Positions 14,863-18,774 of a stretch of DNA of 64,000 nt are shown here, piece by piece; the stretch's first letter is position 1; each line of letters begins with the position of its first letter. Both the position numbers and the translations under genes were made by a program. Origin of the DNA: an uncultured Sediminibacterium sp. (GTDB lineage Bacteria > Bacteroidota > Bacteroidia > Chitinophagales > Chitinophagaceae); contig CALDSE010000029.1 of NCBI GenBank assembly GCA_937911175.1, positions 1 through 64,000 of the forward strand. Direction: 5' to 3'. Below the pieces are notes generated by a model. It did no database searches. It had not been told where the DNA came from and saw nothing but the letters and a program-made list of their open reading frames with translations.

Positions 14863-14894
14863 TTTGGCTGTAAAGCAATAGTGTATTAACTTTG
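14863..14894 (+). promoter_or_regulatory. Bacteroidota-type promoter for metH
   Basis: TTTG at 14863-14866 is separated by 20 bases from TAACTTTG (14887-14894). This fits the TTTG / TAnnTTTG consensus very well and predicts transcription starting near 14898-14902, leaving an untranslated leader of about 145 bases before the metH start. Confidence 0.65.
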
Positions 14895-14903
14895 CTCCGC
14901 ATT

Positions 14904-14964
14904 GCAGGCGGATTTGTTTATTGTTCAACCTGCTTTCCGAAAGGAAAAAAAAGAACTAATAAAC
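14904..14964 (+). promoter_or_regulatory. Structured metH leader, candidate H-type pseudoknot riboswitch
   Basis: Stem 1: GCAGG (14904-14908) pairs with CCTGC (14929-14933). Its loop holds GTTTATTGTTC (14916-14926), which can pair with GAACTAATAAAC (14953-14964; one bulge), giving a crossed, pseudoknot topology. Between them lies a perfect TTTCC-GAAA-GGAAA hairpin (14934-14947). The topology resembles SAM-II riboswitches, which also precede methionine genes, but I cannot match its conserved core base by base. An alternative hairpin TCCGC/GCGGA (14896-14912) overlaps stem 1 and could be a competing state. Confidence 0.4.
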
Positions 14965-15045
14965 GATACTATTTACACCCCCCACTATTTAATAGTATTA
15001 TTAGTTGTTCTATTTTCTTTTGGATACATGCATAAAAATTTATTT

Positions 15046-16059
15046 ATGTCAATTCAAGAGACACTCAAAAAAAGAATTTTGGTTATTGATGGTGCCATGG
15101 GCACTATGATTCAGCGCCATAAATTAACGGAAGCCGATTACCGCGGCACAAGGTTTGCCGACTGGCCTTCAGACCTTAAAGGCAATAACGATTTATTATG
15201 CATTACACAACCCGCCATTGTTACGGGTATTCATTTGCAATATTTAGAAGCAGGTGCCGATATTGTTGAAACCAATACTTTCAGTAGCACTTCTATTGCT
15301 ATGGCCGATTATGATATGCAATCATTGGCTTATGAATTAAATGTAGCAGCGGCTAAATGTGCGCAGGAAGCTATTAAACAATACAAATCAAAACATCCTA
15401 ACGCAACAGAGAAATATATTGCAGGTGCTATTGGACCTTTAAATAAAACTTTAAGTTTATCGCCGGATGTAAATAATCCAGGTTTTCGCGCGGTTACTTT
15501 TGATGAAGTAGTACTAGCCTATACCGAACAAATACGTGGGCTGGTGGATGGTGGCGTAGATATCATTTTAATTGAAACTATTTTTGATACCTTAAATGCA
15601 AAGGCCGCGATATTCGCAGTGAAAGAATATTTTAGAAAAGAAGGCAAGCCTGAATTACCCATGATGATAAGTGGTACCATCACCGATGCATCAGGTAGAA
15701 CTTTAAGTGGTCAAACCTTATCCGCATTCTATACTTCTATTGAACATGCTAAGCCTTTAAGTGTTGGCTTAAACTGCGCTTTAGGGGCACAAGAAATGAG
15801 AAGCCATATTGAAGAACTTGCACAAATAGCCACCTGTTATACATCGGCCTATCCCAATGCTGGCCTACCCAATGCCATGGGTGAGTACGATGAGCAGCCA
15901 CATGAAACAGCTCATTTTATTGAGGACTGGGCTAAAAATAAATTTGTCAATATTGTAGGAGGCTGTTGTGGCACCACCCCAGATCATATTAAACATATAG
16001 CGGATAATGTAAAAAATATTACACCCCGCACGCTACCTATTCAAGACCCAACTATTTAA
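15046..16059 (+). CDS. metH: Homocysteine S-methyltransferase module (N-terminal MetH, split)
   Basis: Binds homocysteine and zinc and transfers a methyl group onto it; the B12 partner module is the next gene. I start at the ATG at 15046 ([23 protein letters not shown]), since the family begins there. The upstream in-frame extension to 14902 is hydrophobic and family-atypical. The zinc thiols are Cys244 ([10 protein letters not shown]), Cys307 and Cys308 ([10 protein letters not shown]). At 337 residues it equals the first domain of full-length MetH. The second half begins 3 bases after its stop, so the two subunits are almost certainly made together. Confidence 0.93.
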
Positions 16060-16062
16060 ATT

Positions 16063-18774
16063 ATGAGTGAAGAAATAATACATATTAAACCTTATTTAAG
16101 ATTAGCAGGATTAGAACCTTTGATTATTCGTCCTGAAACTAATTTTGTAAACGTAGGTGAAAGAACCAATGTAACAGGTTCTAAGAAATTTGCAAGACTT
16201 ATTAAAGACAATAAATACGAAGAAGCTTTATCAGTAGCTAGAAGTCAGGTAGAAAGTGGTGCACAAATTATTGATGTAAATATGGACGACGCCTTATTAG
16301 AAGGGGTTGCTGCCATGACTACTTTTTTAAACTTAATACAAAGCGAACCAGATATTGCCAAGATACCTATCATGATTGATAGTTCTAAATTTGAAATTAT
16401 TGAAGCGGGTTTAAAATGTGTGCAAGGAAAATGTATAGTGAACTCTATTTCCATGAAGGAAGGAGAAGCTAAGTTTATTGAGCAAGCATATATTTGTAAA
16501 GCCTTTGGTGCAGCCGTAATTGTAATGGCTTTTGATGAAAAAGGACAGGCCGATACCAAGGACCGTAAAATTGAAATTTGTTCTCGCGCTTATAAAATTT
16601 TAGTAGAACAAGTAGGATTTGATCCTCAAGATATTATTTTCGATCCCAATATTTTTGCAGTAGCCACAGGTATTGAAGAACATAATAATTATGCAGTAGA
16701 TTTTATTGAAGCTACGCGCGTTATTAAAGAAAGAATGCCACTTGCTAAAGTAAGTGGGGGTGTATCGAATGTATCTTTCTCTTTTAGAGGAAATGATGCA
16801 GTGCGCGAATCCATTCATGCTGTATTCTTATTCCACGCCGTTAAAGCGGGTATGGATATGGGTATTGTGAATGCAGGTCAATTAGAAGTCTATGATGAAA
16901 TTGAACCTACTTTAAGAAACTTATGCGAAGATGTAATACTCAATAGAAATAACGATAACAACGAAGCGACTGAAGCCTTGATTCAATATGCAGATACTGT
17001 ACAAGCAAAAGGCAAGGTGGAAGTAAAGAGTGCTGCATGGAGAGAAGGCACCGTAGAAGAAAGATTAGCGCATTCATTAATTAATGGTATTACCGATTTT
17101 ATTGACGCCGATACAGAAGAAGCAAGATTACAATACAGCGAACCCTTAGAAGTCATTGAAGGACCACTGATGGCGGGCATGAACCAAGTGGGTGATTTAT
17201 TTGGTGCAGGAAAAATGTTTTTACCGCAGGTGGTAAAAAGTGCAAGGGTAATGAAAAAAAGTGTGGCTGTGTTAACACCCTTTATTGAAGCAGAAAAAGA
17301 AAGAAAAAAATTAGCCTCTATAAACCCGAATGGGGCAAGCAAGGGACCTGCTAAAATATTATTAGCCACTGTGAAAGGCGATGTGCATGATATTGGAAAA
17401 AATATTGTGGGTGTGGTACTCGGTTGTAATGGTTATGAAATTATTGATTTAGGAGTGATGGTCGCTGCCGATAAAATTTTAACAGAAGCGCAAAAGCAGG
17501 AGGTAGATATTATTGGACTCAGTGGACTTATTACGCCTTCTTTAGATGAGATGGTGTATATCGCTAAAGAAATGAAACGTAGAGGAATGACTATTCCACT
17601 TATGATTGGAGGTGCTACTACTTCTCGTATGCATACTGCCGTAAAAATTGCACCTGAATATGGTGATGGTGTAATACATGTATTAGACGCCTCCAGAAGT
17701 GTAACGGTGGCTGGTTCATTATTAAACAAAGACCAGAAAGCCCCTTTCTTATTAGAATTAGAAAAAGCCTATGCAGGACTGAAATCCGATTTTGACAATA
17801 AAAAAACAACCAAGCAGTCACTTAGCTATGCGGACGCTTTACAAAACAAAGCCATCATTGATTGGGAAAATTTTAAAGTGGTAGCGCCTAGTTTTACGGG
17901 TAATAAAGCCATAGAGATAAACGACTTATCGGAACTTGTAGACTATATCGATTGGAAACCCTTCTTCATTGCCTGGGAATTACATGGTAATTTCCCTGCT
18001 ATTTTAACAGACAAGGTAGTAGGAGAAGTAGCTACCAAATTATATGCCGATGCGCAAAAATTATTAAAGCAAATTGTTGAAGAGAAATGGCTAACCGCCA
18101 AAGGAGCCATAGGCTTCTGGCCAGCCAGTTCCCATAACGATGATGTAGTTGTAGAAAATGGTAAAGAAAAACTATCCTTACATTTTTTAAGACAGCAAGC
18201 TAAAAAAACAGTGGGTCAACCCAATTATTCATTGGCCGATTTTATTTGCCCAGCTGCTGAAAATAAAAAAGACTTTATAGGTGCCTTTGCAGTTACCATT
18301 CATGGTATTGAAAAACATATCAAGCATTTTGAAGAAAACTTAGACGACTACAATAAAATTATTTTGCAAGCCTTGGCCGATAGACTAGCAGAAGCCTTTG
18401 CAGAATACTTACACGCTAAAACTAGAAAAGAATATTGGGGCTATGCGGCGGATGAAACTTTAAACAATGAATCTTTAATTAGTGAGCAGTATGTAGGCAT
18501 TCGTCCTGCACCAGGTTATCCTGCTTGCCCAGACCATACCGAAAAATATACTTTGTTTAATTTATTAGACGCCGAAAAAAATACGGGCATTAGTTTAACA
18601 GAAAGTTTAGCCATGTATCCAGCCTCTAGTGTTTGTGGTTGGTATTTTGCGAATCCACAAAGTCAATATTTTGGATTAGGTAAAATTAATCAGGACCAAG
18701 TATTAGATTATACGAAAAGAAAAGATAAGCCATTAGAATATATCACAAGGTGGTTACAGCCTGTAATAGACTAA
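16063..18774 (+). CDS. metH: Methionine synthase, folate/B12/reactivation modules
   Basis: Takes the methyl group from methyltetrahydrofolate via cobalamin and passes it to the partner module. Pterin-binding TIM barrel about 20-270 ([14 protein letters not shown]), then the cap and B12 domain with the DVHDIG motif (Asp440-x-His442) for the axial cobalamin ligand. The C-terminal activation domain (about 580-903) carries [15 protein letters not shown], the S-adenosylmethionine-binding stretch used in reductive reactivation. At 903 residues it matches MetH minus its first domain. A separate gene for the homocysteine module occurs in many bacteria and is not a frameshift here, because the two frames are clean and separated by 3 bases. 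Confidence 0.95.

Follow-up and report, generated by a model that had tools for sequence, protein, structure and literature searches.

A conserved pseudoknot in the metH leader of Chitinophagaceae as a probable variant of the SAM-II/SAM-V riboswitches

The window (the whole stretch of 64,000 nucleotides analysed here) carries an H-type pseudoknot in the leader of metH. We consider this leader, with a probability of roughly two in three, to be a SAM-sensing riboswitch of SAM-II/SAM-V architecture, in a variant tied to metH in Chitinophagaceae. Judged from sequence comparison, it is probably an uncatalogued SAM-II/V-type variant acting as a translational OFF switch. The pseudoknot pairing is conserved, its first stem covaries, metH lies downstream, a promoter motif stands at the edge of the element, a downstream pairing competes with it, and SAM-I takes its place in related genomes. 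We lean slightly towards a fuller account, in which a riboswitch found only at metH occurs in most of the family, has rebuilt the amino-acid part of its pocket with an A-U pair in place of an A-A mismatch, recognises either SAM by a novel route or some other MetH-linked adenosyl compound, and holds the post that SAM-I fills in neighbouring lineages. If the reading is true, an uncatalogued group of riboswitches extends across most of Chitinophagaceae, cultured strains included, and offers a natural test of a change in a riboswitch pocket, where one contact base differs and the other known contact bases stay. A search of the open PMC literature, judged from its listings, found no report of such an element.

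Organisation of the metH leader

The preliminary description had proposed a promoter, a first stem, a second stem crossing it and a tetraloop hairpin, and direct reading of the sequence agreed with it on all of them. The promoter consists of TTTG (14863-14866), a 20-nt spacer and TAACTTTG (14887-14894), and we take it to be of the Bacteroidota type. GCAGG (14904-14908) pairs with CCTGC (14929-14933) as stem 1, here called P1. GTTTATTGTTC (14916-14926) pairs with GAACTAATAAAC (14953-14964) as the crossing stem, P2, whose 11 pairs are interrupted by a single bulged U at 14957, and TTTCC-GAAA-GGAAA (14934-14947) forms the hairpin, P3. The features of the leader and gene are as follows.

14863..14894, + strand: promoter, TTTG-20-TAACTTTG (sequence; TAnnTTTG upstream of the core in relatives)
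14904..14908, + strand: P1 5' strand, GCAGG (6 of 6 aligned pairs changed on both sides, 38 leaders)
14911..14915, + strand: putative third strand in L1, GAUUU (conserved in relatives; SAM-V numbering placed by hand, from PMC6061858)
14916..14926, + strand: P2 (pseudoknot) 5' strand, GUUUAUUGUUC (conserved in relatives)
14929..14933, + strand: P1 3' strand, CCUGC (covariation)
14934..14947, + strand: P3 hairpin, UUUCC-GAAA-GGAAA, variable and optional (sequence)
14953..14964, + strand: P2 3' strand, GAACUAAUAAAC (conserved in relatives)
14998..15024, + strand: predicted competing strand, pairing with 14936-14962, that is P3 and the P2 3' strand (minimum-energy folds)
15016..15061, + strand: possible start-codon clamp, 15016-15025 with 15052-15061 (fold without the aptamer strands)
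15046..16059, + strand: metH first part, homocysteine S-methyltransferase domain (PF02574, E 2.4e-99)
16063..18774, + strand: metH second part, pterin-binding, B12-binding and activation domains (PF00809, PF02607, PF02310, PF02965)

Folding of the whole leader (14897-15046) gave a z of -4.6 and that of its first 74 nt (14897-14970) a z of -3.6, with 0 of 200 shuffles as good in either case; when the gene start was included (14899-15075), z was -3.65 and 2 of 200 shuffles were as good. A long competing hairpin, absent from the preliminary description, appeared in the folds. Its 27-nt arms, 14936-14962 and 14998-15024, are 81% complementary, and it draws on the 3' strand of the pseudoknot.

Comparisons beyond the genus were made on 195 distinct leaders with a recognised metH start, made up of 94 (L009-L112), 37 (L121-L170) and 64 (L171-L250); two of the 195 were left out wherever 193 leaders are counted. 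In 163 of the 195, TAnnTTTG occurred no more than 48 nt upstream of the conserved core; 200 shuffling rounds placed it there in 5.9 leaders on average and in 13 at most. Because the motif is enriched directly upstream of the core, the transcript probably starts just before stem 1, at a position predicted near 14899. A stem of at least 4 pairs was found in the P3 segment of 112 of 193 leaders. The alternative hairpin TCCGC/GCGGA, which had been suggested to overlap stem 1, proved not to be general, since CCGC/GCGG is found in just 14 of 193.

In the window, metH is split into two adjacent genes (15046-18774). Its first part has two in-frame ATGs, at 15028 and 15046, of which the second agrees with the start in close relatives. 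Across the order, metH is found both as a short first-part frame of about 335-400 aa and as a long frame of about 1222-1274 aa.

Conservation and covariation of the pseudoknot

A DNA search of 101 genomes of the same genus gave a match in 96; more distant DNA matches were mostly short blocks, often at query positions 56-83 (window 14905-14932). A search with the MetH protein matched 54 of 60 relatives, and loci were taken for the best 30 of these 54, all of the same genus and the window among them. The genus set comprised 105 loci (L001, L009-L112), with several genomes represented more than once. Both strands of P2 were unchanged in 104 of the 105, and P1 varied with compensation. The exception, L073 (263 bases), did not show both strands, held no second core within its length and was left out from the aptamer comparison onward. 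The 104 loci amounted to 79 distinct aptamers, all with GATTTGTTTATTGTTC and GAACTAATAAACG unchanged; 29 positions were the same across the 79, even with up to 3 and 2 mismatches allowed. All 30 loci obtained by the protein search (best 30 of 54), which made no use of leader DNA, carried the element.

Covariation was assessed on the aligned set A1, which holds 38 less similar leaders, with counts that refer to sequences and not to independent events. Changes on both sides were seen at 6 of 6 P1 pairs, the outermost of which was unpaired in 12 of the 38. Of 500 shuffles, 0 reached the P1 covariation score and 5 reached the count of further pair types. When the P1 partner was slid along the alignment, paired cells fell from 97% to at most 46%. 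P2 showed no variation in these 38 leaders; because it is invariant there, its covariation neither supports nor contradicts the pairing.

In the wider set, 26 of 195 leaders depart from the commonest form of the core; 64 of the leaders were found by an exact pattern whose positions are unchanged by construction and 37 through a model derived from the genus, so that only the loci found by MetH protein are free of such ascertainment. The rare P2 changes that keep a pair were U15-A53 to C-G (1 leader) and C24-G43 to U-A (6 leaders), and G14-C54 became A-U in 1 leader and G-U in 2. Nine of the 11 P2 pairs were complementary in 195 of 195 leaders and the two end pairs in 193 and 184, the stem being broken at the top pair in 2 and at the lowest pair in 11. 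Thus P2 shows little covariation, as a stem that scarcely varies. At least 4 of the 5 P1 pairs formed in a fixed register in 175 of 193 leaders.

The preliminary description had left room for chance pairing in AT-rich RNA, and had regarded a lack of covariance support in homologous leaders as evidence against a riboswitch. P1 covaries, whereas P2 scarcely varies. The leader is AT-rich and the pairs of P2 are mostly A-U, as functionless chance pairing would have it; the conservation, the covariation and the distribution described below contradict that reading, to which we give almost no weight.

By covariance model the element lies outside known families

A scan of the window against Rfam 15 found no family at its cut-off, and scans of the window and of the relatives' loci at relaxed thresholds gave no convincing family. 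A covariance-model search of the leader, where a match to a known riboswitch had been looked for, returned no Rfam riboswitch model at cut-off at the element, so that on this side the preliminary proposal found no backing. Weak microRNA-like matches were set aside as chance. The best SAM riboswitch model, SAM_V, scored 11.8 bits (E 8.8), where its cut-off is 41, and the alignment lost the pseudoknot register in places. Among 37 loci carrying the element, none matched SAM-II (RF00521, RF01726) or SAM-V (RF01826) at E ≤ 1. RF00521 gave no match over cut-off in 100 relatives, and of the sub-threshold SAM-II matches in relatives the best three (L113-L115) were discarded, none of them lying before metH. 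No SAM-I match (RF00162) over cut-off was found in the window, nor one at E ≤ 0.01 in the window's genome (G000). Eight classes of SAM riboswitch are listed in PMC13314739.

The family RF01726 (SAM-II with long loops), which Weinberg and others (PMC2864571) list for Bacteroidetes, was examined separately. Scanning 11 Chitinophagaceae genomes gave nothing over the cut-off; the one weak match, in G188 (25 bits), lay away from the element. Across 296 genomes of the phylum, 40 matches exceeded the cut-off, and the best 20 of these 40 were used for a model of our own, with matches taken at E ≤ 10. In 53 loci this model gave 8 matches, none covering the element, one of which (L066, 6.5 bits) overlapped its 3' end; in 26 loci one match covered it (L135, 8.5 bits, E 7.4). 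Since this RF01726-derived model fails to single out the element, we claim no homology to that family.

The putative SAM pocket

According to Huang and Lilley (PMC6061858), SAM is bound almost identically by SAM-II and SAM-V. In the SAM-V crystal structure described there, the adenine of SAM meets a bulged U47, the sulfonium lies beside U9 and U20, a third strand contains U8-U10, and the amino-acid end of SAM sits on A50, which pairs with A18 (PMC6061858). We placed this numbering on the leader by hand. U14913, U14914 and U14915 correspond to U8, U9 and U10; A14920 to A18; U14921-U14922-G14923 to U19, U20 and G21; the bulged U14957 to U47; and U14960 takes the place of A50.

The contact bases U8, U9, A18, U19, U20, G21, C46, U47, A48 and A49 were present in 195 of 195 leaders. 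The bases of U19-U20-G21 opposite C46-[U47]-A48-A49, whose roles are assigned after PMC6061858, are thus complete, and U10 of the putative third strand was present in 194 of 195. The topology agrees as well: the P2 5' strand lies inside the P1 loop, as borne out by P1 covariation and P2 complementarity. The A50 of SAM-V and SAM-II is lacking, however; position 50 was U in 195 of 195 leaders and is able to pair with A18. The preliminary description had seen a pseudoknot resembling SAM-II before metH, had been unable to match the SAM-II core, and had offered a variant as one explanation. In our hand alignment AUUUG, UUG and C-U-AA with its bulged U match that core, but the A that contacts the amino acid is U; the pseudoknot is conserved and has SAM-II core features, and the earlier failure to match the core would follow from the element being a variant.

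In the proposed complex, P1 and P2 would form the H-type pseudoknot, and the U-rich strand of L1 would add a third strand to P2 by lying along its major groove. The SAM adenine would pair with the bulged U14957, and the sulfonium would lie beside two uridine O4 atoms, those of U14914 and U14922. The A14920-U14960 pair would read the amino-acid end of SAM in place of the A50 base of SAM-II/V, and could do so through the groove edge of A18.

The element was then set against each family. RF01726 likewise forms an H-type pseudoknot, in which L1 contains AUUUG, UUG faces C-U-AA with its bulged U, and an A-rich strand precedes the 3' strand of P2; some of its copies also have an extra hairpin at the position of P3, and it occurs in the same class of bacteria, upstream of a SAM-cycle gene. 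The element differs in having U where the amino-acid-site A was unchanged in 20 of 20 RF01726 sequences (best 20 of 40), in a longer and continuous P2, and in its gene, which is metH; metK, named by eye, lay downstream of RF01726 in 20 of 20 loci (L289-L308, best 20 of 40). With SAM-V (RF01826) it has in common the topology with a P3 hairpin, the AUUUG, UAUUGU-C and G-ACUAA of the Rfam consensus, and a 3' strand at the start codon in some species; it differs by the change of A50 to U and by at most 3 bases, against six in SAM-V, between the third strand and U17. Topology and pocket plan are also those of the alpha-proteobacterial SAM-II (RF00521). SAM-I (RF00162) shares only its position before metH in related genomes, and its four-way junction, as described in PMC6061858, is an unrelated fold. 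Topology and retained contact bases suggest that the element works like SAM-II and SAM-V, yet we do not file it as a member of either family because the covariance models place it outside them.

Some of the RF01726 loci have an extra hairpin where P3 sits in the element. A SAM-I match was also present in three of the 12 RF01726 loci scanned for it (L290, L298 and L301).

We also considered a cis-regulatory RNA other than a small-molecule riboswitch, such as a protein site or an intrinsic attenuator, and hold it to be very unlikely. The downstream pairing described below could set expression alone; against this stand an invariant core on the two pseudoknot strands, the U-rich groove strand, a bulged U like that of SAM-II/V, a SAM-cycle gene downstream, and relatives that use a riboswitch at the same place.

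Distribution and gene context

A model (R1) derived from A1 and containing no stem but P1 was run on 348 genomes of the order and, at E ≤ 0.01, found matches in 107. Of these, 99 belonged to the 110 genomes of Chitinophagaceae and 8 lay outside the family; two genomes had two matches and the rest one. In six of the outside genomes (G127, G129, G143, G167, G178, G227) the core preceded a MetH-like frame. The other outside matches were regarded as doubtful or false: G142 (L151) had no core match, and G148 (L152) had a poor one without metH. The second match in G368 (L164) was poor and another match in that genome strong.

Run over the class (395 genomes), R1 gave just one strong match beyond the order, in G1061 (L334), before metH; class-wide matches at E 0.01-0.1, and G753 at 0.0099, were taken as noise without inspection. 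The L334 element has TATTTG instead of GATTTG, and its genome is assigned to another order, through either transfer or a mis-binned contig.

A scan for the exact core in genomes of named species found at least 118 stretches. Many of the 80 record titles listed name Chitinophagaceae or its genera, and others just Bacteroidetes; by record title, cultured carriers include Terrimonas ferruginea DSM 30193, several Chitinophaga, Ferruginibacter paludis and others. Among the matches listed, 113 of the 118 loci have metH no more than 600 nt downstream, and the other 5 have just 72-169 nt of sequence after the start of the first core. The gene downstream is thus a SAM-cycle gene, as expected of SAM riboswitches. 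Eight of the 110 family genomes had neither the element nor SAM-I (at cut-off) at metH, and one of these gave a weak R1 match (L314, 13.4 bits, E 0.27).

SAM-I at the same gene and the ligand

Outside the family, 19 of the 60 relatives were genomes of the order with a metH match, and 10 of these 19 have SAM-I immediately before metH (G038, G041, G043, G044, G045, G046, G049, G054, G055 and G056; positions compared). Within the family, three of the 11 genomes without an R1 match, all of one genus, carried SAM-I before metH (L326-L328), and the same arrangement was seen in other families of the order (L318, L320, L321, L322 and L325). SAM-I and the element therefore hold the same post in different lineages, as though one SAM sensor stood in for another at the same gene. 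It is mainly for this reason that we favour SAM as the ligand. In the genus of the window, SAM-I was present in 13 of 37 genomes and near metH in none; the five loci inspected lay, by eye, before a Cys/Met-metabolism PLP enzyme (4) or homoserine dehydrogenase (1).

An RNA of the same architecture could bind another ligand if the change of A50 to U altered its specificity, and would then report a metabolite tied to MetH, for instance S-adenosylhomocysteine, methylthioadenosine, 5'-deoxyadenosine or the adenosyl part of the B12 cofactor. The sole differing contact base is U in all 195 leaders, and the gene is metH in 113 of 113 loci with enough sequence among the matches listed. RF01726, by contrast, precedes metK (best 20 loci, by eye), and SAM-I in the genus precedes the other genes just named, at the five loci judged by eye. 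These points speak for another ligand, which we nevertheless regard as unlikely: U9 and U20, the bases that select the sulfonium in SAM-V, are kept, and relatives place SAM-I, a SAM sensor, at the same gene.

Downstream pairing and mode of control

If the leader is a SAM-sensing riboswitch, bound SAM would lock the P2 3' strand in the pseudoknot and leave the metH start region closed, with P2 at the AUG in some species and through freed downstream sequence in most. When SAM is absent, the P2 3' strand, joined in the window by P3, would pair with the downstream strand, and the start region would be more open. A translational OFF logic has likewise been proposed for SAM-V (PMC6061858).

We examined the competing pairing in the 179 leaders with at least 40 nt between element and AUG, the 16 of 195 with under 40 nt being dropped; all counts from these tests overstate certainty because the leaders are related. 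The duplex energy of the P2 3' strand with the downstream leader, compared with dinucleotide shuffles, gave p ≤ 0.01 in 67 of 179 and p ≤ 0.05 in 114 of 179, against 0 and 3 of 179 for the reversed-strand control. The longest helix gave a weaker signal (p ≤ 0.01 in 23, p ≤ 0.05 in 52). Among the 55 leaders with p > 0.1 in the first test, 31 reached p ≤ 0.05 when the whole aptamer 3' half was used. This second test was passed by 111 of 179 leaders overall, and either test by 151 of 179, where about 10% are expected from two tests. In the window's clade P3 is also used in the downstream pairing.

The computed openness of the start region averaged 0.507 over the 179 leaders with the natural aptamer, against 0.433 when it was removed and 0.436 when it was shuffled; the natural value exceeded the removed one in 143 leaders and the shuffled one in 141. 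A following strand able to cover the start codon reached p ≤ 0.05 in 18 of the 114 leaders tested, an effect clear in some clades and weak overall. In the window's own leader there was no real difference (0.452 with and 0.445 without the aptamer). Its fold without the aptamer has an extra clamp of 10 pairs, 15016-15025 with 15052-15061, round the AUG, which is absent from the fold of 14899-15075; with or without the aptamer, the AUG is held in a small local hairpin.

For leaders of the window's clade, an alternative is that the long hairpin (14936-15024), which ends in a U-rich stretch, terminates transcription; the pseudoknot would then prevent termination, making an ON switch. Such attenuation is combinable with either view of the ligand, so its odds overlap with those of the other readings; we judge it to be quite unlikely. 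Of the 114 leaders whose downstream pairing is significant, 24 have at least 6 T in the 8 bases after the captured strand, and 8 have at least 7; the 24 include the window and many leaders close to it. The other 90 of 114 have no U-rich tail, and a terminator scan of the leader called none at the long hairpin, its sole call being a small hairpin at 14896-14912, with 0.8 calls expected by chance. A further point against attenuation is the position of the AUG in 16 of 195 leaders, just 0-12 nt after P2 and with no gap in five. For these leaders so short a distance suggests direct occlusion of the start.
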